In this document: positions 578-51,166 of the stretch, in pieces
How the letters are laid out: every line of letters begins with the position of its first letter
How positions within the stretch are numbered: position 1 is the stretch's first letter
Source of the DNA: Bolinopsis microptera
Taxonomy: Eukaryota > Ctenophora > Tentaculata > Lobata > Bolinopsidae
Assembly (NCBI RefSeq): GCF_026151205.1
Contig: NC_087083.1
Location: 3,362,536 to 3,426,535, forward strand
Length of the DNA: 64,000 nucleotides
Reading direction: 5' to 3'
The notes under the pieces: generated by a model
What the model saw: only the letters and a program-made list of their open reading frames with translations
The model's database searches: none
Told to the model about the DNA's origin: nothing
Translations under genes and position numbers: made by a program

Positions 578-14885
<14,308 letters not shown>

Positions 14886-16700
14886 GTTGGGAAGCAAAAG
14901 GAGGTGTGAGGTTGGAAATCAGATCTTCTAAGTCAATAGCTATTCATCTCACTAACAACATATTCTGCATCAATCAAAGTTGTTACATTTTTGAAAACAA
15001 CAATATTCATTATATATACCCTATTTTTTAGGGGGGGGGGGGGGGGTCTTCATTAAAATTCTCTCGAAAATTGACAAAAAACGAGGTCCAAGATTTTCAA
15101 AATCGAATTAAAAATCTCTAAGGCTTATCTCAAAATTCTGGGTCTAGAGTTCTCTTCTAACTGATCCTAAGAACATGTCCTGAAAGTTTGAGGGTGCTTG
15201 CTCAAAAAATGTAGGAGAAGATAGATTTTTGGACCCGATCTTCAGGACGTGCGATTGAAATTTGCTCACGCAATGATTTGACAAATTCCTCGAACCAGTG
15301 ATAGTAGTAAGTCATATAAGAAAGAATTATTTCAATTGGGCACTCAGTGACTGAGCTATTAGGCTAACGTATGCCCACTGACTTTTGGCCCACCCTGTAT
15401 GATATTAAAATATTATGATGAATTGGAGTAATAAAGTTATTTCAAACAGTATGTATAATATATATATATACAATAAATTAAATTAAGTGATGCAATTGGC
15501 AGAGCACAATCGCAAATCCTGAGCAATAGATATTAGATATCATCTATTCCTCGTAGATCTTCTCCTCAGGTGTCCGGTTGAAGGAGAGATTGGATATATC
15601 GGATATATTGGAGTAATAAAGTGAACATCACTGTGTTTTAAAATTAAAATTATAATTAGCAGTGTTTAATCTGAACATCTTAGAAATTGACCTACACCTG
15701 AGGTGTGGACTGGAAACTTATGCTTCTGCAAGCATAAAATCTCAATAAATGGTATCATGGGGGTGCCAAATTGTCATTTGAATATGGAAAATTTTTTGAA
15801 AAACCTAAGGTATTAGCAAAATTGCTCGTTCAACTAAAGAAACACATGGTTTTAAAATTTTTATCAGTGAATCCCCTAGTTTACCTTTCTATTTGCTTAG
15901 GGGAGGGGGCACCACTGTGTACGAAATGGTTCAGACTAATAAAAGGGTCGATATCGAGTTTGGAGAACAGAGGGAGCCAGCTGGGAATGGATGGATTGAC
16001 AAGGAAAAAAAGAAAGGCTGCCAGTAATTGTATGACTATTTCCATTATTGAGACGTTTTTAATATTTAATTTAAGAGGGTTTTTAAAATTTTTATAGGAC
16101 TGGTTCACAGTGTGAACAGATTCCAGATTTATATAATTTTACACTGATATTTAATAAATGATTAAAAGAACCAATTTAAAAGTTGCCATACTAAAGCCTT
16201 TAGGTCCAAAAATATACCTATTATGTTCACTTAAAAACAACTCTAAATCAGTAGGCTATCACTCTATTAATGCACCACACCGCTACCTCCACAGCACTAA
16301 AAGTTATACAATAAATTCTACAATACTACTTTTGCATAGTGATGGAGACCGGTGTCCATACAAAACATTTACTAGGTTGCCGTTTGATTTGAGCAATAGC
16401 GAACAGCACGCACACTCCTTTTCCCCGTCAACTAAACCTATATCTAATCTATTTAAAGAGTGACAACCATACTACACATTGAATTAGGATACCTTTAAAT
16501 ATCAAATTGATTTATCGTAAACTTGTTTACTCTGTAATAAATGGCATAAAATTGAAATTTTGGTTTAACTGAGTAAAGTTGCAACCCCCACAGATTGTGA
16601 AATATGACATAGCTGAAATCGGGAAAACGTGAAAGGAGGTTTAAATTGTGTTTACTCACATTATATGATAAGATTGTATGATAAAATTGTATGTATAAAA
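14886..16700. other. intergenic; one solitary mariner-type end near 15398
   Basis: The stretch holds a G-run at about 15030 and ACTTTTGGCCCACCCTGTA ending at 15399. The latter resembles the inverse terminus of the element at 3880-5381; no partner end is visible. No host gene is seen. Confidence 0.5.
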
Positions 16701-16704
16701 TTGT

Positions 16705-17730
16705 ATGTATGACAGTTATTACATCAGTAACCCTGTTCGTTTCTTATACAAACGGTATGTAGATGATGCTGGTTCCTTAGCCAAATCCAGAGAAGAAGCA
16801 CTGGATATGTTACAACGCATAGCCGACCAGGATCCCGATAACAGAATCAAGTGGGAGATCGAGTTCCCGTCTACCCCTGCGGATTTTGTCCCGTTCCTGA
16901 GTACGGAAATCCGGATCGATGAGGAAGGAAAAGTGCACCACAGATTCTACAGGAAAACCCAGAACAAGGGGATAACATTACACCAGAAGTCACACCACCC
17001 GGACTCAGTGAAGGAGGAGTGTAAGAAGAACTTCTACCGTAATGCCACCATTGCTTCCTCAGGACCCCAGGAACTCGATCATTCAGTTAAGATCATCGAT
17101 GATCTCTTAAAGAAAAATGGACACCAACCTCTGAGTCATAACGCAAGGAACAGGAGGACTAGGAGAAGACGTCAAACCACACCTGACTCTGTCCCACTCA
17201 CCTTACCATTCATCTCTGGAACAGTTTGTAATAAGATTCGCAACTACATCAAATCTAACAAACTCCCCATCAGAGTTATTTTTACACCTGGTAAGAAGTT
17301 ACAGGACATCTTCTGCCGCTCTCGTCCACTGGATAAGAAGACTTGTGACCTTGGTAACCCTAACAATTGTGAGATCTGCCCTAGACTCACAGGAACAACA
17401 TGCTCAACAAAAGGAGCTATTTACTTAGTTACTTGCGAGTTATGTGGTAAGAGATACTGTGGGGAAACTGAGAGAAGCCTCCATGCTCGTCTGATGGAGC
17501 ACAGACAGGCTGCTAGGAATCCTAGAGCACATCCAGAGAATGGGGTTGGACAGCACTACGCATCTCTACATCCTAACCGAACCCCAGTTTTATCTTTTAA
17601 GTTACTTGATTTACAGAGTAAAACTGTTCGTAGAAAGATTGTAGAAGCGATGTATATATTGAGATTAAGTCCTGAAATGAATGATCGTTCTGAGTTGAGT
17701 TATTTGTACAAATATTTAGTCGATGTTTAA
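16705..17730 (+). pseudogene. Penelope-like element ORF: C-terminal reverse transcriptase plus GIY-YIG endonuclease, 5'-truncated
   Basis: The 341-codon ORF begins inside the reverse transcriptase. The catalytic box RYVDD is at residues 17-21, followed by palm/thumb sequence (PADFVPFLSTEIRIDEEGKV). Residues 145-156 are Arg-rich. A Cys cluster follows (C214, C222, C225, C233), then a GIY-YIG nuclease with GAIY (237-240), YCG (251-253) and R262. RT joined to GIY-YIG is diagnostic of Penelope-like elements. Full elements are roughly twice as long; the upstream RT motifs are missing. The ORF is otherwise intact, so the insertion may be fairly young. A 3' tail runs to AATAAA at about 18113. Confidence 0.88.
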
Positions 17731-21808: not shown

Positions 21809-24800
21809 AAGTGTACTAACTGCCTGTGGGAGGTAGGGGTGAGTTTGAGTAGCTGTACTCGTTGTCTGACGAGTCGCTCTCGTCATTCTTGTCAGTGTCT
21901 TCTAGAGGAAAGTTGTGCTCCATCTCCGACTGGGCCAGTACAAATACCTGCCGGACAATGCAGAGCTAAAACATACACTATATACTATACATTACTATAC
22001 ACTACTATACACTACTATACCATATACATACACTATATACACTACTATACGCTATACACTATACACTCTAACTCGGGCATATACCAGTGATACCACAGTT
22101 ATACTCGAGAACATTCTCTTTTTCATAAAATAATTTAAGATTTAAGCGTTATATAACGGCGTTATTGGATCATTAACTGTCTTATTAAGAAAAGGTTCCT
22201 TTGCTGGCGACCTTCTGATTTAATAAATGCGATTATGGAGAGTCTGCTAATGTCAGCCTTGGAGTTGGAGCAACCTTTACGAAACCAATCTGAAATAATG
22301 GGTAAAGTAACCACTAATAAATACCTTGTCACTAGGACGGAGCTTAGCGTCGTAAGGTGGCGCTGTGTTCACATATCTGTCCTCATTGTCTCTACCATTC
22401 CTCCCTCTCTCCCTGCTGATAAGAATTGAATGATAGACTAGCAGGATCACTTGGCTCTTTATTTGGGTAGAAACTTCTGAGCAGCCGTATAAACCAGTCT
22501 AGAATAACAACTTTATTTCGAATAAAATATTTCATAACCATGTTTTGCGCGGGATTTCTTCAAATTCGAGTACAATTTTAGATCAGTTTATAGTACTGTA
22601 AGCAGTGTAAACACTACTGTTACCATGACAACACTACTGTTACCATGACAACACTACTGTTACCATGACAACACTACTGTTACCATGACAACACTACTGT
22701 TACCATGACAACACTACTGTTACCAAGACAACACTACTCAACATGAGGACTCTAACTAAATATAGTTAGACGACTCTAATTACTATATTTACTCGCTGGA
22801 GGTGGGGGATTTCTTGTTAGATCCTTTGTGTGTTTTCTTGTAGCAGCGGTAGAGACCGAGAGCAAGCATCGAGTGTCTTCTAAGTAGCATCTCGAATAGT
22901 TCCCCGTATACCTGGTCAGTGATAAATTAATCTACTTACTGCTTAGTTGCACCTATATACAACTATCAACCATGTAACAACTATGTAACAACTATGTAAC
23001 AACTATGTAACAACCATGTAACAACTATGTCACAACTATGTAACAACTATGTAACAACTATGTAACAACCATGTTACAACTATGTCACAACTATGTAACA
23101 ACTATGTAACAACTATGTAACAACTATGTAACAATTAAATTACCCTTATTCCAGAGAAGCGCTCGTCAGCTAAAGAGATCTGAGCTATTCTGCAGCTCAT
23201 TCTCGTCCTTAACCAAGGACGGAACTTGTTCAGACCTATTGCGATTCCACAATCATCTGGAAGAGAAAACAACTTTTAGTATTACTTTAATAATAGAGTT
23301 ATAATTGTTTAATAATGTTCGATTAAAGCGCCAATCAGAAATTCTTGATAAAGTGATACTCAATTTGGAGGAAAATGTACAAATAGAAATAACTTTGCGA
23401 AGGAGGAAAAAGTTTGCGGAGGGGTTTGATAAGGAGTTTGATAAGGAGTTTGATAAGCGTATATCACACGCTCATGTTTGCGATGCAAACATTATAGTGT
23501 GTCATGAGTTGGTTTTTTTAGATACAATTCATTAAAACACTGACCGAGGTCTGTGAAAGCCAGGTAACCAGGTAACCAGGTAACCAGGTAACCAGGTAAC
23601 CAGGTAACCAGGTAACCAGGTAACCAGGTAACCAGGTAACCAGGTAACCAGGTAACCAGGTAACCAGGTAACCAGGTAACCAGGTAACCAGGTAACCAGG
23701 TAACCAGGTAACCAGGTAACCAGGTAACCAGGTAACCAGGTTATTAAAACACTGACCGAGGTCTGCGAAAGCGTCGTCAGGGTCCTGGGAGTGAGAGTCA
23801 ATCCCAGTTATCAGAGTTCTGATTATCCTCATCAGCTTCTCATTGTAGAACGTCTGTAATTTTATAAAACATGTTAATTAGTAAGGATTAATTAATTGAA
23901 TAGACGTTGTAACAGGGTTGATGAATGAGGACAGTAGTGACAATATAGTATTCTTATATAGTGACTATGTGCCCTGTAAACTCCTGGCAATTTTGTTATT
24001 AGAAAAATGTGGTCCTTCAAATTCAATGGTTCATGCAATCATGTCATCCTCCATTATTCGGCGATAATTAAACAATTGTTGACGATAATTCAACCCTTTT
24101 CAAAATACACTCTGATATTTCAAAACTATGCAAAATCTTCGATTGTAATCCACAGAGCTCCGACTAAAGAATGTAATTACATGATTATACCTCATACGTT
24201 ACTATGATTCCTAATAAGTCACGTGTATTTACATCTACTGTTCAATGCACACTTAACATGGATAATGCTAATAGCTGGTCATGTGCTATCTGGTTAGGGA
24301 GTGGAGTCAAACAATACACAATACAATACAATACATTTGTAAATACAACATGCGCTATCTGGTTAGGGAGTGGAGTCAAACAATACACAATACAATACAA
24401 TACATTTGTAAATACAACATGCGCTATCTGGTTAGGGAGTGGAGTCAAACAATACACAATACAATACAATACATTTGTAAATACAACATGCGCTATCTGG
24501 TTAGGGAGTGGAGTCAAACAATACACAATACAATACAATACATTTGTAAATACAACATGCGCTATCTGGTTAGGGAGTGGAGTCAAACAATACACAATAC
24601 AATACAATACATTTGTAAATGTAAATACAACATGCGCTATCTGGTTAGGGAGTGGAGTCAAACAATACACAATACAATACAATACATTTGTAAATACAAC
24701 ATGCGCTATCTGGTTAGGGAGTGGAGTCAAACAATACACAATACAATACAATACATTTGTAAATACAACATGCGCTATCTGGTTAGGGAGTGGAGTCAAA

Positions 24801-27800
24801 CAATACACAATACAATACAATACATTTGTAAATACAACATGCGCTATCTGGTTAGGGAGTGGAGTCAAACAATACACAATACAATACAATACATTTGTAA
24901 ATGTAAATACAACATGCGCTATCTGGTTAGGGAGTGGAGTCAAACAATACACAATACAATACAATACATTTGTAAATACAACATGCGCTATCTGGTTAGG
25001 GAGTGGAGTCAAACAATACACAATACAATACAATACATTTGTAAATACAACATGCGCTATCTGGTTAGGGAGTGGAGTCAAACAATACACAATACAATAC
25101 AATACATTTGTAAATACAACATGCGCTATCTGGTTAGGGAGTGGAGTCAAACAATACACAATACAATACAATACATTTGTAAATACAACATGCGCTATCT
25201 GGTTAGGGAGTGGAGTCAAACAATACACAATACAATACAATACATTTGTAAATACAACATGCGCTATCTGGTTAGGGAGTGGAGTCAAACAATACACAAT
25301 ACAATACAATACATTTGTAAATACAACATGCGCTATCTGGTTAGGGAGTGGAGTCAAACAATACACAATACAATACAATACATTTGTAAATGTAAATACA
25401 ACATGCGCTATCTGGTTAGGGAGTGGAGTCAAACAATACACAATACAATACAATACATTTGTAAATACAACATGCGCTATCTGGTTAGGGAGTGGAGTCA
25501 AACAATACACAATACAATACAATACATTTGTAAATGTAAATACAACATGCGCTATCTGGTTAGGGAGTGGAGTCAAACAATACACAATACAATACAATAC
25601 ATTTGTAAATACAACATGCGCTATCTGGTTAGGGAGTGTAGTCAAACACTACAGAACAATACATTTGTAAATACAACAAACACTCTTAACACTACAGGAC
25701 ATGCGGGTTATCTGGACACTAGATATTATTGTATAACATAGTAACCATGGTAACCATGGTAACCATGGTAACCTTCACGCTACATGCTCTCTGGGAACAT
25801 AGTTAACATTAACACGTGTAGCAGAATCTCGCGTTTTACCAACGATAAGATAGAGTCGAGTACTGACACGATGAAGGCTTGGCCCTTAGCGAAAGGGGGT
25901 GAGGCGGTGCCGAGAGACTGGTCGCTGTCCCCTCGGTCCAGCACCATGAATTCTACATTCGTATCCTGCACTGCATGGGGCGCGTGTGAGGCGAGTGCTG
26001 CTTAATTAATTAAGAAGCTGACCAGATCCCCTTTTTTGGATTGTCTTAATCCTCAAACTTTGTTATTTTCATTTAAAATAAGTCAATAAGTGCTCTATCC
26101 GGTCAGCTTCTTTATAAAACTATCTGATAAATTTACCAAAGAGAGAATAGCGTCCAGCACGGAAACAATGAAGGCTTGTCCTCGAGTGAAGGGCAGAGCC
26201 ATGTGCAACCCCCTTTGTGAGGAGTCCTTCGACTTCTCCATGAATTGCACATTAGAATCATTTACTGTAAAAGGGTTATTCAAAATACATGCACATTAGA
26301 ATCATTTACATGCATCAAGCTAATTACATAACTTATTACATGCATCAAGCTAACTACATATCGCAAGATTAAAATGTCAAATATTGGAAAGGGTTTGTAC
26401 ACAATGTACAGGTGAAACCTATTTAAATAACGTTACCTATCTCCGAGATAATGGGTACTTGCATCCTGTTTCTCTTCGGTTTCTCGTTCAGAGCATACTT
26501 GAAGGAGCGTGGAGCTATCAGCTCAGTTCCACCGCAGCCTTTTATCTGCCACAAGTTTATTATTAGTGTAACTATGGTAACTAGTAGTGTAACTATGGTA
26601 ACTAGTAGTGTAACTATGGTAACTAGTAGTGTAACAGGGCATAATTAAAGGAGCGTGGAGCTATCAGCTCAGTTCCACCGCAGCCTTTTATCTGTCACAA
26701 GTTTATTATTAGTGTAACTATGGTAACTAGTAGTGTAACTATGGTAACTAGTAGTGTAACTATGGTAACTAGTAGTGTAACTATGGTAACTAGTAGTGTA
26801 ACTATGGTAACTATTAGTGTAACTATGGTAACTAGTAGTGTAACTATGGTAACTAGTAGTGTAACTATGGTAACTAGTAGTGTAACTATGGTAACTAGTA
26901 GTGTAACAGGGCATAATTAAAGGAGCGTGGAGCTATCAGCTCAGTTCCACCGCAGCCTTTTATCTGTCACAAGTTTATTATTAGTGTAACTATGGTAACT
27001 AGTAGTGTAACTATGGTAACTAGTAGTGTAACTATGGTAACTAGTAGTGTAACTATGGTAACTAGTAGTGTAACTATGGTAACTATTAGTGTAACTATGG
27101 TAACTAGTAGTGTAACTATGGTAACTAGTAGTGTAACTATGGTAACTAGTAGTGTAACTATGGTAACTAGTAGTGTAACTATGGTAACTAGTAGTGTAAC
27201 TATGGTAACTAGTAGTGTAACTATGGTAACTAGTAGTGTAACTATGGTAACTAGTAGTGTAACTATGGTAACTAGTAGTGTAACTATGGTAACTAGTAGT
27301 GTAACTATGGTAACTAGTAGTGTAACAGGGCATAATTAAAGGAGCGTGGAGCTATTAGCTCAGTTCCACCGCAGCCTTTTATCTGCCACAAGTTTATTAT
27401 TAGTGTAACTATGGTAACTAGTAGTGTAACTATGGTAACTAGTAGTGTAACTATGGTAACTAGTAGTGTAACTATGGTAACTAGTAGTGTAACTATGGTA
27501 ACTAGTAGTGTAACTATGGTAACTAGTAGTGTAACTATGGTAACTAGTAGTGTAACTATGGTAACTATTAGTGTAACTATGGTAACTAGTAGTGTAACTA
27601 TGGTAACTAGTAGTGTAACTATGGTAACTAGTAGTGTAACTATGGTAACTAGTAGTGTAACTATGGTAACTAGTAGTGTAACTATGGTAACTAGTAGTGT
27701 AACTATGGTAACTAGTAGTGTAACTATGGTAACTAGTAGTGTAACTATGGTAACTAGTAGTGTAACTATGGTAACTAGTAGTGTAACTATGGTAACTAGT

Positions 27801-30800
27801 AGTGTAACTATGGTAACTAGTAGTGTAACAGGGCATAATTAAAGGAGCGTGGAGCTATTAGCTCAGTTCCACCGCAGCCTTTTATCTGCCACAAGTTTAT
27901 TAGACTCCATCATCATTATCGCGGAATTTGGGAGAAATACAAATAATTTTGATAGTAATTACTTGATAGCCTATATATAAATAGCCTAATAATAACCTGC
28001 AGGAATGACAGAATAGTCTCCTTATCCACTAAGTTAGGATCCGTTGCTTTTCCCTGTAACGCGGAGGACAGGATAAGGCACATCAAGCAGTTCTGCACTC
28101 CCGCTGAAATAACGTCTTCTCTTCTCATGGGGGACCCCTGGTGGAGTTATGTGAATCTTTAGGAGCGAATATTATTGCCTTTTATTTAATGACAAGTTAC
28201 ATTAGAGTGAAAAACCCAGTTTTCTGTTAAAAGCAAATGTAGAGTGTACGATGATAAAATCATACCTCCATGAAATAAACGTCTTGGAAGTCGTTCAAAT
28301 CTTTCCACTCTTTTTCGATGTAGTCTTTTTGTCCCAAAAGTAGAACTTTTTTCACCTCCGCCATGGGAAGATTACTGCTTCTCAGCGGTAAGAGCTGAAA
28401 TTGGTGAGATTTGAAAATAAAGTGGCAAATGAAGTTGGAGTATTTGACATTGACAGTAACGGTGAGGGTGACAGTGACGGAATAGTTACTCACCAGATTC
28501 CTAAGCCCAACAGTGGGAGAGTTAGTGTCTCCAAAAACGCACACTATGATATGGTCAGTTAGAGTAGCCACATCTTCTTTCGTCTGAAATTGCAAGCCGG
28601 TAAATGACTGGTAACCATGGTAACCGGTAACTGACTGGTAACTGACTGGTAACCATGGTAACCGGTAACTAACTGGTAACTGTCAGATATATACTACTCA
28701 ATTGCTATAACGGAGATAAAAACAAAAGTAAAAGTAAAAGTAAAAGTAAAAGTAAAAGTAAAATTAAAAGTAAAAGTAAAAGTAAAATTAAAAGTAAAAG
28801 TAAAAGTAAAAGTAAAAGTAAAAGTAAAAGTAAAAGTAAAAGTAAAAGTAAAAGTAAAAGTAAAAGTAAAAGTAAAAGTAAAAGTAAAAGTAAAAGTAAA
28901 AGTAAAAGTAAAAGTAAAAGTAAAACTAAAAGTAAAAGTAAAACTAAAAGTAAAACAATTTATGAAGGTACCATGGTAACGTCGTCCAGAGCACATGGTT
29001 CCCGCCAATGATAAGCCCCTGTTCCATCTAGCGTCAGTTTCTGGTCGTACTTAGCCCGTTCTTCTTTACCAAGTGTCTTCCAAAATGGCACCTGGTTAGG
29101 AACATCCGGACCAGGTCTAGGTGGCATTTCTGTGAATCCCTCCGTTAACTCAAAACTGTGGGGAAACTTATATAGAGACCTCTTCCTTCATATAAACAGA
29201 ATCACTGCAATTATTATATGCTAATAGCATGTTAATTATGCTAATTATGCTCATTATGCTAATAACATGTTAATGAAATAAAAAGTACTTTAAAAAGTGG
29301 ACATACTTGTTAACAGTGCGATATTGTCCGTCAAACTGTCCGTCAGGAACAGGAACAGACAGCCCGGTCCTTATGAACTTGGCTGAGGAGAAAAAACTTG
29401 TTAAAAATTGTTATTTATTAAATAATAGCAGAGGGGTTAACGTAATTCAAATAAAATTGTTAACGTAAAAATAGTTTATTATATATAGCAGAGGGGTAAC
29501 AACTCAGATTTAACATGACATTCAGGGTAGCTTTTACATTTCAAGAAGCAGATTAGTAAATTAATTAATAACTGTATTCAAACTGTCGAATGGTAAGATG
29601 CTCAAATGGAAACTTATAATTAAAGTTGGGACTTACTTTTATCGCAGTTGCATTTGGATATCTCGTTGTTAGATGTATACTCGTGACACTGGTAGCAGTA
29701 GAAGGCTGCACTGTAAATTAATTATGTAATATAATATGTAATTAATGTAATTATCTGAGATATTTATTAACTGGGATGAAACGAGGTTATAGAAAGAAGA
29801 AATGAGCGAGGAAATGAGCAAAGAAATGAGCCAGATGGTTACCATATGAGAATGGTGGATACGTTAACTTATTGGCAGTTAACCTACCTTTTAACTGCTT
29901 GAGGGTTTTGAGCGATGAATATACCCCTACTGTTTTCAGAGAACCTAAAAATACTAGGACTAGGATTAAAGAGGATGCCAGAGCTGTCAGCATTAGTTTC
30001 CACCTCCACTCCTATCAGGAGAATGTGAAGCTTTATCAGACAAATCTCCGCCACCATTGGGAAACTCATTCCCACGAAGTCACTACTCATAGCCCCAGTG
30101 TAGAGCTCATTGGAGGCCCCGAACCCATACTCGTACTGCCAGTGGTCCCGTACGTCGTTAGACGGGTTCTGAATGAGGGAGCGTTATTATTGTGAAGAGC
30201 TGAAAACGATTTACACAAGTATTTTGAAAGCTCCTGCTAATAAAATCCTTTCATATATCACTTATATGTTTTAAATATCCCCCTCCAGGTTATTATTGTG
30301 ATGGGGTTCAGTGGCGTAACTAATCACATAATTTGTCTAATTTAAGGGAGGGCGCTAAAAGGGGAGGGGGCGCCAAAAGGGTAGGGAGCGCCAATAGGGG
30401 AGGGGGCGCTAAAAGGGGAGGGGCGCTAAAAGGGGAGAGGGCGCTAAAAGGGGAGGGGGCACTAAAAGGGGAGGGGGTGCATATAGGGGGACGCTAACAT
30501 GCAAAGTTACGCCACTGATGGGGTTTAGACGGTTATCAATCTAAGCCGCGAACAAGTATCTATATTGCATTGCTGTATTGTATAATGTATAATGTATATG
30601 TTCTATTTGTGAACGGTTCAAATCAAATGGAGTTGTTAGTGAGATAAAAGATTGAGATAAGGATTTGAAAGTGTATGAATGTGAATGCTAACATTATAAT
30701 TGCCGGGCTGGAAGGAACTCATCATGATGAGATTAGCCACCATGGTGCTGAAACCAGGACACAGACAACTCTTTCCGAGCAGTCCTAACTTTAGCTCGTT

Positions 30801-31304: not shown

Positions 31305-34300
31305 GTGAGGATAACGTATGTAGGGTTATAGCTTATAGAATATAGGGTTAATGTTATAACTTATAGAGTTATATAATATAGGGTTAATGTTATAACTTAT
31401 AGCCTCTCACCTGAGAATATTAGCGGCGTCCTCTGCGTCAGGTTCGTGCGAGTGCTTGTTTGCAATTACCAGGCACGCTTTAGCTGTGTCACACTGCGGC
31501 AAGCTGCATTAAACTCTTTAAAATCATTTTCTTTTATACTTATTCGCAAAATAAATTATTGTGACGCTCTCTAAATCTAAATTAGCTATTAGAACCGCCA
31601 ACTCCGTCCAGCTCATTTGTTGAATAACCAGATATCCAATAAACCGTTGTATTGTAAAAATAGCTTGTAAGTACTATTATTGAAAGTATTTTGTTGCTGA
31701 GTTTCCTTGATGATTAGGTAATTAGCATGGTAACGCTAGTCGTTACCATAGAAACACCTAGTGTGTAGTTTACCTTGACCCGCTGTAAGTCTCCTGACCC
31801 TAAAGGACTGCCCTGGAAGTACTGACACCGGTAAAAATGTCGGTGCATTAGATTCTGTAATTCTTCTGGTGGTGGGGTACTGAAACGAAATGTTCAAATC
31901 TCACTGTGCAAATCTAGTTGATTTTGTAATATCTGACAGATAAATGTTCTAAGCACTTAAACATATGGATTTGAAACAAACCGAACGAAACTTACGGATT
32001 TAAAAATACGGCAGTAGTTTCTTGGTTTTCGTTTTCCGGATGTAGAAAGTCGCGCATAAAGTTGCTGACAGTACTGGTGGTTATATAACCACTCACAATT
32101 ACGTGACTGAGGGGAGTTAGTTGATTAAATGAGAGAGTTACCATGGTAATACTACTAGTTACCATGGTAACACTACTAGTTACCATGGTAACATTACTAG
32201 TTACCATGGTAACACTACTAGTTACCATGGTAACATTACTAGTTACCATGGTAACACTACTAGTTACCATGGTAACATTACTAGGTACCATATAGGTATC
32301 ATGCTACAGAGTGAAATTAATGGAGAAGAAAATGTGTAATCACCTTGAGTGAGTCAAGGTTTATAAAGCAGATAGCATAACACACGTAATAATATCTCAT
32401 GAGATTAAACAGAGTCACATTAAACAAGCATATCCTGCAAAATCATATCTACAAACCCCGCACAAAAAAGATGCATCAAAATCAAGTATGTATATCTGCC
32501 AAAACTCTCTTACGATTACCTAAGGAACATGTTGCTAATGGATATGTTGCTAAGGAGTAAGGAACATGTTGCTAAGGAGTAAAGAACATGTTGCTAAGGA
32601 GTAAGGAACATGTTGCTAAGGAACGCCTCATTCTATATCAAGGATGGATCTTCAGAGTACGCGGAGTTAAAAAATAATGGGGTTTTATAGAATCATAAGA
32701 ATTAAATATAGGCCGGATAGCGTTTATACGCTCTTAAATTATAGAACTAAAATGTATTTTAAAAATTCCAATAATGTCAATTTTTGAAATGTCCAATTTC
32801 AGTTTTTCAAAATTGCAATTGAACATTGGTTCCCCCCTCACTATCATCGCATTTAGTTTTCTATATATATATATCACTTCTATAATCTATATATGAAGAT
32901 ATATCACTTCTATAATCTGTATAATATGAAGATATCACTTCTATAATCTATATATCACTTCTATATATGAAGATGTAAATATTTACCTAGATCTACTATC
33001 ATCGTATTCCCCGAGGAAGGAAGGTTGTTTATGAAACAATTCTACTACTGCTGGCCCGAAAGAAGCAAATACAGCCTAAAACAAGAGGTGAAGGAAGTGT
33101 TAGCAGTAAGCAGAACATAAACACACAAACAATGCTGAGCATGCTGTTTAGCAGGCTGCTAAGGTGTGGTTACCATGGTAACATCACTAGTTACCATGGC
33201 AACACTACTAGTTACCATGGTAACACTACTAGTTACCATGGTAACACTACTAGTTACCATAGAAACACAGTAGGTGCAGTTAAAAAGAGAAGATATAATA
33301 GGTGGAAATTAAAGATAAAACAAAGCACCGAGCCATTAAGCAGCCTGCCAAGCAGTAAAACACACATGCACTATGTTTCCATAGTAACATAGCAAACAGA
33401 GCATGCACTATGTTTCGTAACATAGCACACAGACCATGCACTATGTTTCCATAGTAACATAGCACACAGAGCATGCACTATGTTTCCATAGTAACATAGC
33501 ACATAGAGCATGCACTATGTTTCCATAGTAACATAGCACACAGAGCATGCACTATGTTTCCATAGTAACATAGCACACAGAGCATGCACTATGTTTCCAT
33601 AGTAACATAGCACACAGAGCATGCACTATGTTTCCATAGTAACATATCACACAGAGCATGCACTATGTTTCCATAGTAACATAGCACACAGAGCATGCAC
33701 TATGTTTCCATAGTAACAAAGCACACAGAGCATGCACTATGTTTCCATAGTAACATAGCACACAGAGCATGCACTATGTTTCCATAGTAACATAGCACAC
33801 AGAGCATGCACTATGTTTCCATAGTAACACCCAGTTACCTAGACTTAGAATCGTCGTATTCGCCCAAAAAAGAGGCAGGTTTTTGGGAGAGTTCCACGAG
33901 GGCCGGCATAAACGAGGCAAAAACTGCCTAAAATAGAAAATATTTTGCAATTTGGTAGTTTTTACAGCTCCGAATTATTTGCAATCAGACCTCTAGCCTG
34001 TAATGTGCTGTTTGGCTGACTACGACTTGAATAGTTACAATAGTTGAAAGAAGATTCACAATAATACATATTTACTTGGAGTAAGTAATAAATAAAATAA
34101 CTGGAATTAATGAACGTACCAGTCCGATTATGATAATAAATATAACGATTATTTGGCTTTCTCGACTACTGGGGTGTTTGTCACCGTACCCAATCGTTGA
34201 TAAAGTAATCTGCGGAGTTGTAATTTTATTAAATATATAAAAATATATAATTATTAATTATATATATACATATAATCATATGCTGATCAACTTTATAATT

Positions 34301-37300
34301 TCTAATTGTAAAATGTGATATCATGAAAATTAAGGCAGAAAAGTGAAAAAATTAAAATTTGTATTCTTTTAACTGTAAGATGAATGCGAAGTTGAATATA
34401 TATGTATGTATACTTACAAATAAAAAATAAAGTGACTCCCAAAACGTTAAACCGCAAGGAGATTTTGTACACTGGGTGTTCTGCGCTGACATATTATCAA
34501 CCTGGGATAATTTACTGTTCTAGTAAGCTCCGAATAAAGTATGTTTTTGAAAAGTAAAATGAATTGAAGTAAGCAAAGCTTTGTCAAATCTAATAATATC
34601 AGCAACTCTGCAAAAGGAGGAGTTTATTGAAGAGTTAAATGGTTCTTGTATCTTGTTGTTCAGTGATTACTTCATAACATAATGGTTCTTGTATCTTGTT
34701 GTTCAGTGATTACTTTATAACATAATGGTTATTGTATTTTGTTGTTCAGTGATTATTTTATAACATCTCACCAGAAAATAAAGTCCCCCAGCAGTTAACC
34801 AGAAGCTAACACACACAGACACACAGACAGACTACTAGTAGTACTCACCAGAAAATAGAGTCCCCCGGCAGTTAACCAGAAGCTAACACACACACAGACA
34901 CACAGACAGACTACTAGTAGTACTCACCAGAAAATAGAGTCCCCCGGCAGTTAACCAGAAGCTAACACACACAGACACACAGACAGACTACTAGTAGTAC
35001 TCACCAGAAAATAGAGTCCCCCGGCAGTTAACCAGAAGCTAACAAACTGACAGACACACAGACAGACTACTAGTAGTACTCACCAGAAAATAGAGTCCCC
35101 CGGCAGTTAACCAGAAGCTAACACACACACAGACACACAGACAGACACACAGACACACAGACACACAGACAGACTACTAGTAGTACTCACCAGAAAATAA
35201 AGTCCCCCGGCAGTTAACCAGAAGCTAACACACACACAGACACACAGACAGACACACAGACACACAGACACACAGACAGACTACTAGTAGTACTCACCAG
35301 AAAATAAAGTCCCCCGGCAGTTAACCAGAAGCTAACACACACACAGACACACAGACAGACACACAGACACACAGACACACAGACAGACTACTAGTAGTAC
35401 TCACCAGAAAATAGAGTCCCCCGGCAGTTGACCAGAAGCTAACACACACAGACAGACACACAGACACACAGACACACAGACAGACTACTAGTAGTACTCA
35501 CCAGAAAATAAAGTCCCCCGGCAGTTAACCAGAAGCTAACACACACACAGACACACAGACAGACACACAGACACACAGACACACAGACAGACTACTAGTA
35601 GTACTCACCAGAAAATAGATTCCCCCGGCAGTTAACCAGAAGCTAACACACACAGACACACAGACAGACTACTAGTAGTACTCACCAGAAAATAGAGTCC
35701 CCCGGCAGTTAACCAGAAGCTAACACACACAGACACACAGACAGACTACTAGTAGTACTCACCAGAAAATAGAGTCCCCCGGCAGTTAACCAGAAGCTAA
35801 CACACACAGACACACAGACAGACTACTAGTAGTACTCACCAGAAAATAGAGTCCCCCGGCAGTTAACCAGAAGCTAACACACACAGACACACAGACAGAC
35901 TACTAGTAGTACTCACCAGAAAATAGAGTCCCCCGGCAGTTAACCAGAAGCTAACACACACAGACACACAGACAGACTACTAGTAGTACTCACCAGAAAA
36001 TAAAGTCCCCCGGCAGTTAACCAGAAGCTAACACACACACAGACACACAGACAGACTACTAGTAGTACTCACCAGAAAATAAGTCCCCCGGCAGTTAACC
36101 AGAAGCTAACACACACACCTGACACACAGACAGACTACTAGTAGTACTCACCAGAAATAGAGTCCCCCGGCAGTTAACAGAAGCTAACACACACGACACA
36201 CAGGACAGGACACCGAAAGAGTCCCCCGGCAGTTAACCAGAAGATAACACAAACACAGACAGACTACTAGTAGTACTCACCAGAAATAGTAGTCCCCCGG
36301 CAGTTAACCAGAGCTAACACAACACAGACACACAGACAGACACACAGACAGACACACAGACACACAGACAGACTACTAGTAGTACTCACCAGAAAATAGA
36401 GTCCCCCGGCCAGTTAACCAGATGCTAACACAACAGACACCAGACAGACACACAGACACACAGACACACAGACAGACTACTAGAGTACTCACCAGAAAAT
36501 AGAGTCCCCCGCAAGCTACAAAACAGAAGCTAACACACACACAGACACACAGACACACAGACACACAGACAGACTACTAGTAGTACTCACCAGAAAATAG
36601 AGTCCCCCGGCAGTTAACCAGAAGCTAACACAAACACAGACACACAGACAGACTACTAGTAGTACTCACCAGAAAATAGAGTCCCCCGGCAGTTAACCAG
36701 AAGCTAACACACACAGACACACAGACAGACTACTAGTAGTACTCACCAGAAAATAGAGTCCCCCGGCAGTTAACCAGAAGCTAACACACACAGACACACA
36801 GACAGACACACAGACAGACTACTAGTAGTACTCACCAGAAAATAGAGTCCCCCGGCAGTTAACCAGAAGCTAACACACACACACAGACACACAGACACAC
36901 AGACAGACTACTAGTAGTACTCACCAGAAAATAAAGTCCCCCGGCAGTTAACCAGAAGCTAACACACACAGACACACAGACAGACTACTAGTAGTACTCA
37001 CCAGAAAATAGAGTCCCCCGGCAGTTAACCAGAAGCTAACACACACACAGACACACAGACAGACACACAGACACACAGACAGACTACTAGTAGTACTCAC
37101 CAGAAAATAAAGTCTCCCAGCAGTTAACCAGAAGCTAACACACACAGACACACAGACAGACTACTAGTAGTACTCACCAGAAAATAGAGTCCCCCGGCAG
37201 TTAACCAGAAGCTAACACACACACACAGACACACAGACACACAGACAGACTACTAGTAGTACTCACCAGAAAATAGAGTCCCCCGGCAGTTAACCAGAAG

Positions 37301-40300
37301 CTAACACACACAGACACACAGACAGACACACAGACAGACACACAGACAGACTACTAGTAGTACTCACCAGAAAATAGAGTCCCCCGGCAGTTAACCAGAA
37401 GCTAACACACACACAGACACACAGACAGACACACAGACACACAGACAGACTACTAGTAGTACTCACCAGAAAATAAAGTCCCCCGGCAGTTAACCAGAAG
37501 CTAACACACACACAGACACACAGACACACAGACAGACACACAGACACACAGACAGACTACTAGTAGTACTCACCAGAAAATAGAGTCCCCCAGCAGTTAA
37601 CCAGAAGCTAACACACACAGACACACAGACAGACTACTAGTAGTACTCACCAGAAAATAGAGTCCCCCGGCAGTTAACCAGAAGCTAACACACACACACA
37701 GACACACAGACAGACTACTAGTAGTACTCACCAGAAAATAGAGTCCCCCAGCAGTTAACCAGAAGCTAACACACACAGACACACAGACAGACTACTAGTA
37801 GTACTCACCAGAAAATAGAGTCCCCCGGCAGTTAACCAGAAGCTAACACACACAGACACACAGACACACAGACACACAGACACACAGACAGACTACTAGT
37901 AGTACTCACCAGAAAATAAAGTCCCCCGGCAGTTAACCAGAAGCTAACAAACTGACAGAGAGTCCTGGAGAGGTTTAGCATTTTGTGGGAGGAGATTAGC
38001 TTCACAGCTGCTACGTCATCACCGAACCAGTTTAGACGCACTGCTCGAATAAACCGCAAACCTGGGGTCATAAACACATTTACAATTTATACATATTATA
38101 CATTGTACATTGTACATTGTACATTGTACATTGTACATTGTACATTGTACATTGTACATGTAGTTACATAACATAAACACATTTACAATTTATATAGTAA
38201 AATTACATAATCAGTGTCTTATTCATAAGATCGTATTATTCATAATTGAGAATTGTTTGAATAAAAGTTAAAACGCATTCAGTGAAGTTATATCATATCT
38301 CATAGTAGTAGTAGTAGTAGTGAAGTTAAAACTGAAATAAAAACACTGTGTTGCCATGGTAACCAGCTAATCGTACTCACCAAGCCACGTAGTACCCAAA
38401 TACATTGTCAGAAATGCCGGAGGAATTGTACAAAAATCAATTAGCGAATTCAGTTCAACCCAAAAACTTAGTTTGTCTTTAGCAACAATACACTGAAATG
38501 TGGTTATTTAGCTTCATTTCACCCCGAGTTATAACTTCATAACACACATTCACCTAATATTATACACAGTAAAATGTTCTCATTAATGGGTTTCGGAACA
38601 TTTCAATTGTAAGCAAATTTGGAAAGGTAATTGCGAATCAATACAAATTTGTGTAAGCAAATTTGGAAAGGTACTTACCATAACTGTGAATCGCCAGAGG
38701 AAAAAAATGTTACATATAAAATCTAAAATAACGCCTATAGCAGACCGTTCTATACAGCGTTCCAAACTCCTGAAATAGAGTATAAAATGTTAATAAATAT
38801 AAATTAAATAAATAATAAATATGTTACAAATTTGGAATGAAGTCCCTCAAAGACGTATTTTTTTGGAATCGAATTATAATTAGGTTATTTGCAATCTAAT
38901 ATAGAAAACCGGGAATAAAATAGAAAATGTTAACAAATTTAATTAAATGGTTATTCTTATTTGAATAAAAGATGGAGAATAGAAAAATCTAGTAAGGCTT
39001 ATTTATAACTTATAACTTATAACTTATAATATAATAAACTTTATAACTTATAACTTATAACTTATAATATAATAAACTTTATAACTTATAACGTATAATA
39101 TAACTTACTCAGATGTGTCTATAAGGTATAATATTATCGCCACTATAGTGAATAGCATCGTCAACCACGTCTGAAATACACAGTGATAACAACAGAATGT
39201 CTCATAGTTAAACAACTTTAACTCACTTTCACGCGCAGACTGGCAGTGTCACGTGATCACTAGGTGCTATGTTACTATGGTAACATACCATGTTACTATG
39301 GTAACATACCATGTTACTATGGTAACATACCATGTTACTATGGTAACATACCATGTTACTATGGTAACATACCATGTTACTATGGTAACACACCATGTTA
39401 CTATGGTAACACACCATGTTACTATGGTAACACACCATGTTACTATGGTAACACACCATGTTACTATGGTAACACACCATGTTACTATGGTAACACACCA
39501 TGTTACTATGGTAACACACCATGTTACTATGGTAACACACCATGTTACTATGGTAACACACCATGTTACTATGGTAACACACCATGTTACTATGGTAACA
39601 CACCATGTTACTATGGTAACACACCATGTTACTATGGTAACACACCATGTTACTATGGTAACACACCATGTTACTATGGTAACACACCATGTTACTATGG
39701 TAACACACCATGTTACTATGGTAACACACCATGTTACTATAATGGTAACACACCATGTTACTATGGTAACACACCATGTTACTATGGTAACACACCATGT
39801 TACTATGGTAACACACCATGTTACTATAATGGTAACACACCATGTTACTATGGTAACACACCATGTTACTATGGTAACACACCATGTTACTATGGTAACA
39901 CACCATGTTACTATAATGGTAACACACCATGTTACTATGGTAACACACCATGTTACTATGGTAACACACCATGTTACTATAATGGTAACACACCATGTTA
40001 CTATGGTAACACACCATGTTACTATGGTAACACACCATGTTACTATGGTAACACACCATGTTACTATGGTAACACACCATGTTACTATGGTAACACACCA
40101 TGTTACTATGGTAACACACCATGTTACTATGGTAACACACCATGTTACTATGGTAACACACCATGTTACTATGGTAACACACCATGTTACTATGGTAACA
40201 CACCATGTTACTATGGTAACACACCATGTTACTATGGTAACACACCATGTTACTATGGTAACACACCATGTTACTATGGTAACACACCATGTTACTATGG

Positions 40301-50482: not shown

Positions 50483-50525
50483 CCATAGACACAGTGTTTC
50501 GTCCTATTAGGACTCATCAGTATGG
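50483..50525 (-). ncRNA. type I hammerhead ribozyme motif
   Basis: The minus strand from 50525 reads: stem I CCATA; core CTGATGAG; stem II TCC, loop TAATA, GGA; core CGAAA; a short stem III (CAC/GTG, minimal loop); cleavage triplet GTC; stem I partner TATGG. All invariant core bases are present. Cleavage is predicted between 50488 and 50487. Very short stem III is known for hammerheads of Penelope-like elements and retrozymes. It lies directly before a Penelope-type GIY-YIG ORF, but on the opposite strand. Confidence 0.88.
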
Positions 50526-51166
50526 CTCAAATCATCAGGGTTGGTTTTGCCGATATATTATTAATATATATATATAGAGAGAAAACAACTGCAAGCCAGA
50601 TCCAGGAACCAGACTCCGAAAGTCTAAGGGCGGTTCCCGGGGCTGTCGACCCAGGGTGCCATGCTTGTGGTAAATGTTATGTTTGTAAGCAAAATTTCCT
50701 GTCCCCCTGTTCCAATTTTAGTAGTCACCATTCTAAACAAGTTTTCCCTATAACTAAGTATATATCTTGTCAGAGTTATAACCTCATTTATTTAATGGAG
50801 TGTAAGACTTGTAAACAGTCGTATGTCGGTTATACTACCTCAAATCTCCCTAAGAGATTCTCTAACCATAAGAGTCACATAAAGAAAGGTATAAGAAGTT
50901 GTAAATTAGTTAACCATTTTTTAGATATTGATCATGATTTAGATTTTAGTACCATGGCCTCCTATAATTCCTCACTTAGTAAGCACCTTTCTGTCATTAT
51001 AGTAGACGCTTTAGTATTTGAGCCTAATATTAGTAAAGCAGACAAAGAAAAGGCTATGGAAGCTAGAGAGGGGTTCTACCAGACCCAATTGAAAACCCTT
51101 GAACGGTTTGGGGGTATGAACACCCTTGATAGTAACCATCTACTTTTTAAATCTGCCGGAGCTTAG
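50522..51166 (+). pseudogene. Penelope-like element, GIY-YIG endonuclease end only
   Basis: This 214-codon ORF has a Cys cluster (C46, C49, C52, C55, C63) and a GIY-YIG nuclease: NLIY (87-90), YVG (101-103), R112 and NHKSHI. No reverse transcriptase remains; the sequence before residue 20 is ATATAT-rich and probably not coding. It differs from the copy at 16.7 kb, so at least two families are present. AATAAA follows near 51478. Confidence 0.8.

Follow-up and report, generated by a model that had tools for sequence, protein, structure and literature searches.

How does an intron come to hold dozens of copies of the end of its own upstream exon, nearly all with a donor, and how might a gene accommodate them? 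The question is raised by a tandem array in the Slo1 (BK channel) gene of the ctenophore Bolinopsis microptera. The gene lies in a 64,000-nucleotide (nt) stretch of contig NC_087083.1 (positions 3,362,536 to 3,426,535), hereafter the window, in whose coordinates positions are given unless a contig or locus is named. The window holds two genes on the minus strand, calcineurin A at about 0.6-14.4 kilobases (kb) and Slo1 at about 22-39 kb. The joined Slo1 translation matches BK chains in the PDB across the voltage sensor, pore and RCK domains (E 1.8e-76), with both RCK1 and RCK2 exons found, and the joined calcineurin translation matches PDB calcineurin (E 5e-91). A preliminary description had assigned the array to 'Slo1 exon 6'; BK homology supports the gene, but the number 6 is not established.

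An exon end and its donor are repeated in tandem

The exon preceding the array begins at an acceptor at 38061 and ends with ...GGA CTT TAT TTT CTG/GTGAGT (a slash marks a splice boundary); position 37910 is its last base and position 37909 is intron base 1. The following exon starts at 34501, at the junction CCCAG/GTTGATAATATG. When 37910 is joined to 34501, the reading frame is open and the alignment with BK is continuous across the junction, and the array is therefore intron.

When the genome was searched for the true exon end, 37 matches were returned, all of which lie at G000:C12:3397302-3400535 (window 34767-38000). These are the true exon end and 36 tandem, head-to-tail copies behind it, each carrying approximately the last 40 exon bases, in line with the preliminary count of about 36. 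The motif CTGGTGAGT occurs 35 times including the true site, indicating that the nine-base CTG/GTGAGT is identical in 34 of the 36 decoys. The last copy reads GTGAGA, and one further copy has lost its donor. The copied donors are thus largely intact, and the true donor at 37910 is the first in transcription, both as first described.

The exon part, measured from CTTCTGG to the donor, is 34 nt long in 31 of the 36 measurable copies (true exon included) and 32, 33, 33, 35 and 37 nt long in the other five. Of the decoy copies, 30 have an exon part of 34 nt and differ from one another at 5 of its 34 sites; in 29 of them (last copy excluded) the 33 intron bases that follow are invariant. With such near-identity, chance is not in question. 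The two most variant of the five sites are synonymous in the exon's own frame (GCC or GCT, CTC or CTT; read by eye).

Each unit had been described as carrying its own acceptor, made of a TG-rich tract ending in TTAG. The tract does end in TTAG in every copy except the degenerate one (TTAT), but the TTAG is exon sequence itself, lying in the codons GTT AGC, and the 'acceptor' was thus inherited with the copied exon. On a crude pyrimidine score, the 35 TTAG sites average 1.73 (range 0.7-2.2), and the 27 acceptors of the window gene models average 2.27 (range 0.5-4.2); the array TTAG is a middling acceptor.

The exon part is specific to the locus, and the intron half has one relative elsewhere

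The preliminary description had asked whether the copied segment is abundant elsewhere. For the exon part it is not, and a transposable element, dispersed repeat or introner family is rejected for that part, with 37/37 exon-end matches at one locus. The intron half has one relative 248 kb from the array. Specifically, a 301-base query gave, among the matches listed beyond the array, only simple repeat, apart from C12:3648461-3648527, which reaches the donor. In the surrounding segment (C12:3648361-3648600, L094), the donor with its palindromic intron start (CTG/GTGAGTACTACTAGTAGT) and the TG tract recur once. The upstream part of this segment differs from Slo1 and resembles a short exon with its own acceptor (TTTACAG/GACAGAG...GACCTG/GTGAGT). 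A genome pattern search for the donor and intron start, with at most one mismatch, gave 36 matches, 34 of them in the array or at the true site; the two outside Slo1 are an exact match at C12:3648508 and a one-mismatch match at C12:2872326. The 15-mer AGTACTACTAGTAGT of the intron start has 70 matches, 36 of them outside the Slo1 locus (reversed control, 2), and is a scattered word in the genome.

A proposed origin by junction duplication and expansion

We consider it likely that the Slo1 array is a 'mirage' minisatellite (a name that, to our knowledge, has been applied only in amphioxus), seeded at an exon-intron junction, expanded, and tolerated as a nearly neutral element. The usual copy matches 40 exon bases, and copy 33 matches 50. 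The join motif of copy 33, TCTGTC, is common to exon and intron, and this copy may be read as the fossil of a longer initial duplication joined there. Judging from copy 33, at least 50 exon-end bases, the donor and the intron start would have been copied by a tandem duplication that used this short motif as its join. Slippage or unequal exchange would then have amplified and homogenised the unit to 36 copies, in the manner of other minisatellites in this genome and as near-identity and unit-length variation suggest, and changes in the TG tract would have trimmed the copied exon part. During splicing, the exon's acceptor would pair across the exon with the nearest donor, namely the true upstream one. 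Because exon definition would pick the exon-proximal donor, the array would be removed as intron and stay close to neutral, and stray decoy use would lead to a stop codon and probably to message decay. The array is one of many in a minisatellite-rich genome.

Most predicted uses of the decoys are unproductive

In silico, a message spliced from a decoy donor always met a stop before the end of the S6 exon (0/35 open as far as that exon). Inclusion of the 30 copies of 34 nt left the frame open in 0/30 single, 0/435 double and 154/4060 triple combinations, in agreement with the early expectation that a 34-nt pseudo-exon, if included, would break the frame. With odd-length copies added, 2/35 single, 47/595 double and 238/6545 triple inclusions were open. 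Decoy use is thus mostly unproductive. The upstream true donor is probably the one used.

The introns flanking the Slo1 exon are 319 and 3408 nt long and those flanking the corresponding calcineurin exon (see below) 942 and 3930 nt, and both exons belong to the long-intron class. In a minigene study, the upstream of two identical strong donors was used exclusively in five exon-defined, strong-donor minigenes; the upstream of two equal donors was preferred in the long-long intron class, and short introns favoured the downstream one (PMC9225289).

Several points weigh against the proposed origin. The relative at C12:3648361-3648600 is unexplained by purely local duplication, the microhomology join rests on one copy, and the copy number comes from one assembly with an error-prone-looking stretch. 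The choice of the true donor is predicted from sequence, and in the minigene study cited above about 60% of human events favoured the downstream donor when strength was not matched (PMC9225289). Selection for a function of the array may have acted, and arrays that span acceptors are also present (L035, L010).

The same structure recurs in unrelated genes

That the array is singular to Slo1, or a channel-specific device, is not supported. Beyond it, in the small part of the genome that was read, we found eight more repeats of an exon end with its donor, and two that span an acceptor. The eight comprise calcineurin A, three myosin exons, two leucine-rich-repeat (LRR) exons, a Kv channel exon and a second Slo1 exon, and a reading unique to Slo1 is rejected in view of the calcineurin, myosin, LRR and Kv cases.

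In calcineurin A, the exon-end junction occurs 19 times including the true one, in two blocks of one intron (Table 1). All 11 matches of a 201-base query fall within the exon 12600-12489 and its intron. In one myosin gene, the exon at C2:3177387-3177578 is followed by a perfect 40-base-pair (bp) array at C2:3176547-3177430, with about 22 units including the true one. A second exon of this gene (L087) has two copies, in which at most four exon bases are copied. The third myosin exon (L057) has its donor in four copies, the true one among them; it has no Pfam or PDB match alone, but aligns with myosin once joined to the next exon. Elsewhere, a myosin-head exon is tandemly duplicated (L055, C3:9154012-9154485; a 65-nt stretch is 91% identical), possibly as alternative exons, and at C3:11063974 a myosin match interrupted by stops has an 8-bp array touching its start.

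The largest array lies in L010 (G000:C12:3436536-3446535), 10-20 kb past the high end of the window, where Pfam identifies LRR exons. On the minus strand at 4343-7083 of this locus, an exon end CTCAAG/GT recurs at 26-bp spacing in about 105 units. Its recognisable donors number 98 with the true one counted, and 88 of these read GTGAGT; it thus has more copies than the Slo1 array. At 9720-10000 (minus strand), another LRR exon end is repeated in 7.4 units, and GT is lost at 4/7 readable donors; this array is a decaying case. A third LRR exon of L010 has three copies of its acceptor edge, as has an Ion_trans exon (L035). The Kv T1 exon (L030, BTB_2) has two donor copies.

Donor-side arrays outnumber acceptor-side arrays in a small sample

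Searches that started from homology found donor-spanning copies at 3/30 window exons, two of them with arrays and the third with a lone extra copy, and at 1/73 myosin-head exon matches (54 in one test, and 19 from 17 loci in another, where two loci with two exons each were treated as one stretch). None was found at 30 Ion_trans matches or at the 17 of 35 TCP1 matches tested. The search edges in these tests were the edges of the profile matches, so exon ends lying further out were missed, L087 among them. Left uncounted were L015 and L045 (16-18 nt, dispersed), L055/L062 (a duplicated exon pair), slo_S3 (15 nt), cna5 (a 20-nt exon piece without donor) and slo_R12a (a 20-nt exon start without AG).

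Two scans started from arrays, one of 14 rows and one of 155 arrays (unit at least 18, at least 1.9 copies; window plus L009-L093). The latter gave 16 donor rows and 15 acceptor rows, and eight donor and two acceptor loci were kept after the sequence was read. Dropped donor rows include L045 (the array starts at the donor, without a copy), L058 (no exon evidence) and L071 (strand opposite to the matched gene). Dropped acceptor rows include L020 (seemingly a coding repeat), window 28599-28682 (the array stops short of the acceptor), the Slo1 array itself, L077 (antisense) and L051 (donor not copied). From the 14-row scan, L026 was read and has no exon edge, and L066, L011 and a 391-bp array at 6275-7453 were set aside without being judged.

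With the second Slo1 exon added to the eight donor loci kept from the scans, donor arrays outnumber acceptor arrays 9 to 2. The count is small and post hoc and mixes search strategies, in scans with different donor and acceptor thresholds, so the binomial value (one-sided 0.03, two-sided 0.065) is only a hint and the donor excess suggestive only. In the same sample, four or more copies occur only at donors (six cases). A first-come rule, in which decoy acceptors are transcribed first and decoy donors last, would make donor arrays better tolerated. This is a prediction beyond exon definition, for which the small, post hoc sample is suggestive. We put forward tentatively, as a possibility short of an even chance, that minisatellites at exon edges pervade the intron DNA here as a class of their own. 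Large ones would then persist almost exclusively at donors, since the spliceosome would commit to the first, exon-proximal donor and an upstream decoy acceptor would be harmful.

Perfect palindromes of at least 12 were found in 6 of 75 array units (shuffled mean 0.81), of at least 10 in 7 (3.21) and of at least 8 in 20 (10.09). Palindromes were considered as a general driver of array birth; the case is weak, and none is obvious by eye in the calcineurin A and myosin units. By eye, the palindrome GTTACCATGGTAAC is common to several minisatellite units.

Relation to known boundary-spanning repeats

According to two reports, amphioxus mirages are minisatellites that span exon-intron boundaries on donor and acceptor sides and carry splice signals in many copies; they vary between haplotypes and seem not to disturb splicing, with cases in Adh3, the globins BflGb6 and BflGb9 and troponin C, and something similar in PGBD5 (PMC3087553, PMC3902484). 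The Slo1 array has the structure of a mirage: its unit spans the boundary, the array adjoins the true exon, the exon end is in every copy, and the donor is in 35/36. As in amphioxus, the splice signal is present in many but not all copies (34/36 identical, one GTGAGA, one lost). Regular splicing seems to be kept in amphioxus, and the homology across the 37910 to 34501 join is consistent with the same in Slo1. Unlike the amphioxus cases, these arrays belong to another phylum, donor-side arrays predominate in the ctenophore sample, and copy numbers reach 36 (Slo1) and about 105 (LRR), compared with 6 and 3 units in the BflGb6 haplotypes.

In human duplicated genes, internal tandem repeats that lie at exon-intron boundaries are reported to have given recent paralogs novel introns (PMC2812944). 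Both those repeats and the Slo1 repeats overlap splice boundaries, but the latter lie within an intron whose original boundary is probably kept. Compared with boundary-crossing tandem duplications that carry splice signals more generally, the Slo1 array would have lengthened an intron and formed no new one. Polyubiquitin UBC has a tandem array of dual-specific splice sites (PMC10809524). Each unit bears a splice signal in both, but UBC units are coding and variably spliced, whereas Slo1 units are non-coding and mostly frame-breaking. A limited literature search turned up no ctenophore case of such arrays, though this is only weak evidence that none has been reported.

The ctenophore arrays extend the mirage structure from amphioxus to another phylum, and their interest lies in copy number, apparent abundance in the genome and the natural test of donor choice that they offer. 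Donor choice among equal sites is usually examined in minigenes that contain only a few of them; the introns described here hold about 20 to 100 donors, identical or nearly so, with the true exon still attached. Exclusive use of the first donor would support exon-proximal choice in a deep-branching animal, and anything less would mean that channel and myosin output must be shaped by the array. Should the reading as a pervasive class be true, the genome would provide a natural competition series of 2 to about 100 equal donors, and new exons and introns could arise from it steadily.

Alternative explanations

If the array were a regulatory device, its pseudo-exons or decoy donors would be used in some cells, and unproductive splicing would lower Slo1 channel output. 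Nearly every unit has a donor, TG tract and TTAG, and a stop follows whichever decoy donor is used and whenever one or two 34-nt copies are included. In a Caenorhabditis elegans survey that builds on slo-1 work, intronic minisatellites are linked to multiple splicing decisions (PMC4039745). Against this, calcineurin, myosins, LRR and Kv genes share the structure with unrelated units, which argues for a mutational origin, and the acceptor is of middling strength and merely came along with the exon; we regard regulation as quite unlikely. Somewhat less doubtful, though still unlikely, is a factory of proto-introns and proto-exons, in which rarely used units form a standing source of new exons and introns. 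A strong donor and TTAG are already in nearly every unit, and such a model has been proposed for the amphioxus globin mirages (PMC3087553); no new exon or intron position came to light here.

That the assembler multiplied or invented the copies is very unlikely, since units differ among genes, one array is perfect over about 22 copies, substitutions are common to several Slo1 copies and unit lengths vary. The indel-rich copies 16-21 do resemble unpolished long-read sequence, and the assembly is reported to be a wtdbg2 product with short-read polishing by pilon (PMC10232365). The indels in these copies are probably residual assembly error, and the exact Slo1 copy number may be wrong. An array of duplicated functional exons, mutually exclusive or cassette, would accord with the two duplicated exon pairs elsewhere in Slo1 (33.9/33.1 kb and 26.3/26.0 kb) and with the open triple inclusions. 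The copies, however, comprise only the last 34-50 exon bases with the frame shifted, and no single or double inclusion of 34-nt copies is open. We reject this explanation, as extremely improbable, for partial copies that are not whole in-frame alternatives.

Features of the window

Table 1. Coordinates of the two array-bearing genes' features in the window
Feature	Position	Strand	Evidence
Slo1 exon, S4-S5 region (...WLTAGGLYFL), 152 nt	37910..38061	-	PDB homology, splice sites, open joined frame
Slo1 intron, 3408 nt, phase 0, tandem arrays almost throughout	34502..37909	-	
Mirage-type array, 36 copies of exon end, donor and TG-rich tract, unit mostly 77-107 nt	34767..37909	-	
Copies 16-21, clustered single-base indels	36072..36529	-	
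Degenerate copy without donor	36184..36243	-	
Tract before the copy at 35038 (copy 33), keeps TCTGTCAGTTTGTTAG as the exon does; others have TG repeats	35039..35083	-	
Separate, unrelated 43-bp x 3 array between mirage array and acceptor	34638..34766	-	
Following Slo1 exon (VDNMSAQNTQC...), acceptor CCCAG/GTTGAT	34418..34501	-	Homology, splice site, open frame
Slo1 RCK2 exon, end and donor CTCG/GTCAGT recur once behind a (TGGTTACC)n array	23757..23853	-	
Second copy of the RCK2 exon end and donor	23530..23560	-	
Calcineurin A exon, end CCTTCAAACTAGAAT/GTAAGT copied in the following intron	12489..12600	-	
Calcineurin 29-bp array, 3 donor copies including the true one	12407..12504	-	
Second block of the calcineurin unit, same intron, 16 more AAACTA[AG]AATGTAAGT copies	9570..10335	-	

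Slo1 has two duplicated exon pairs, both probably mutually exclusive, one in the S6/linker (33839-33927 and 32987-33075) and one in the calcium-bowl region (26137-26264 and 25840-25970). The acidic run DDDDDPD of the human sequence is kept by neither calcium-bowl exon copy here.

The minisatellite load is extreme: by TRF, tandem repeats make up 39.6% of the window, and in the adjoining 20 kb (L009, L010) the share is 50-56%. A 391-bp unit at 6275-7453 has three copies, 98% identical, with open frames of about 60-100 codons. An equal kinase match score was obtained at G000:C68:524-1285, on a small contig, and at C3:15521599-15522360, on a chromosome-sized one, and the former is perhaps a leftover haplotig. 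Long open frames at 16699-17727 (+) and 50489-51163 (+) look by eye like retroelement protein ends that bear a GIY-YIG-like motif, perhaps of Penelope-like elements.

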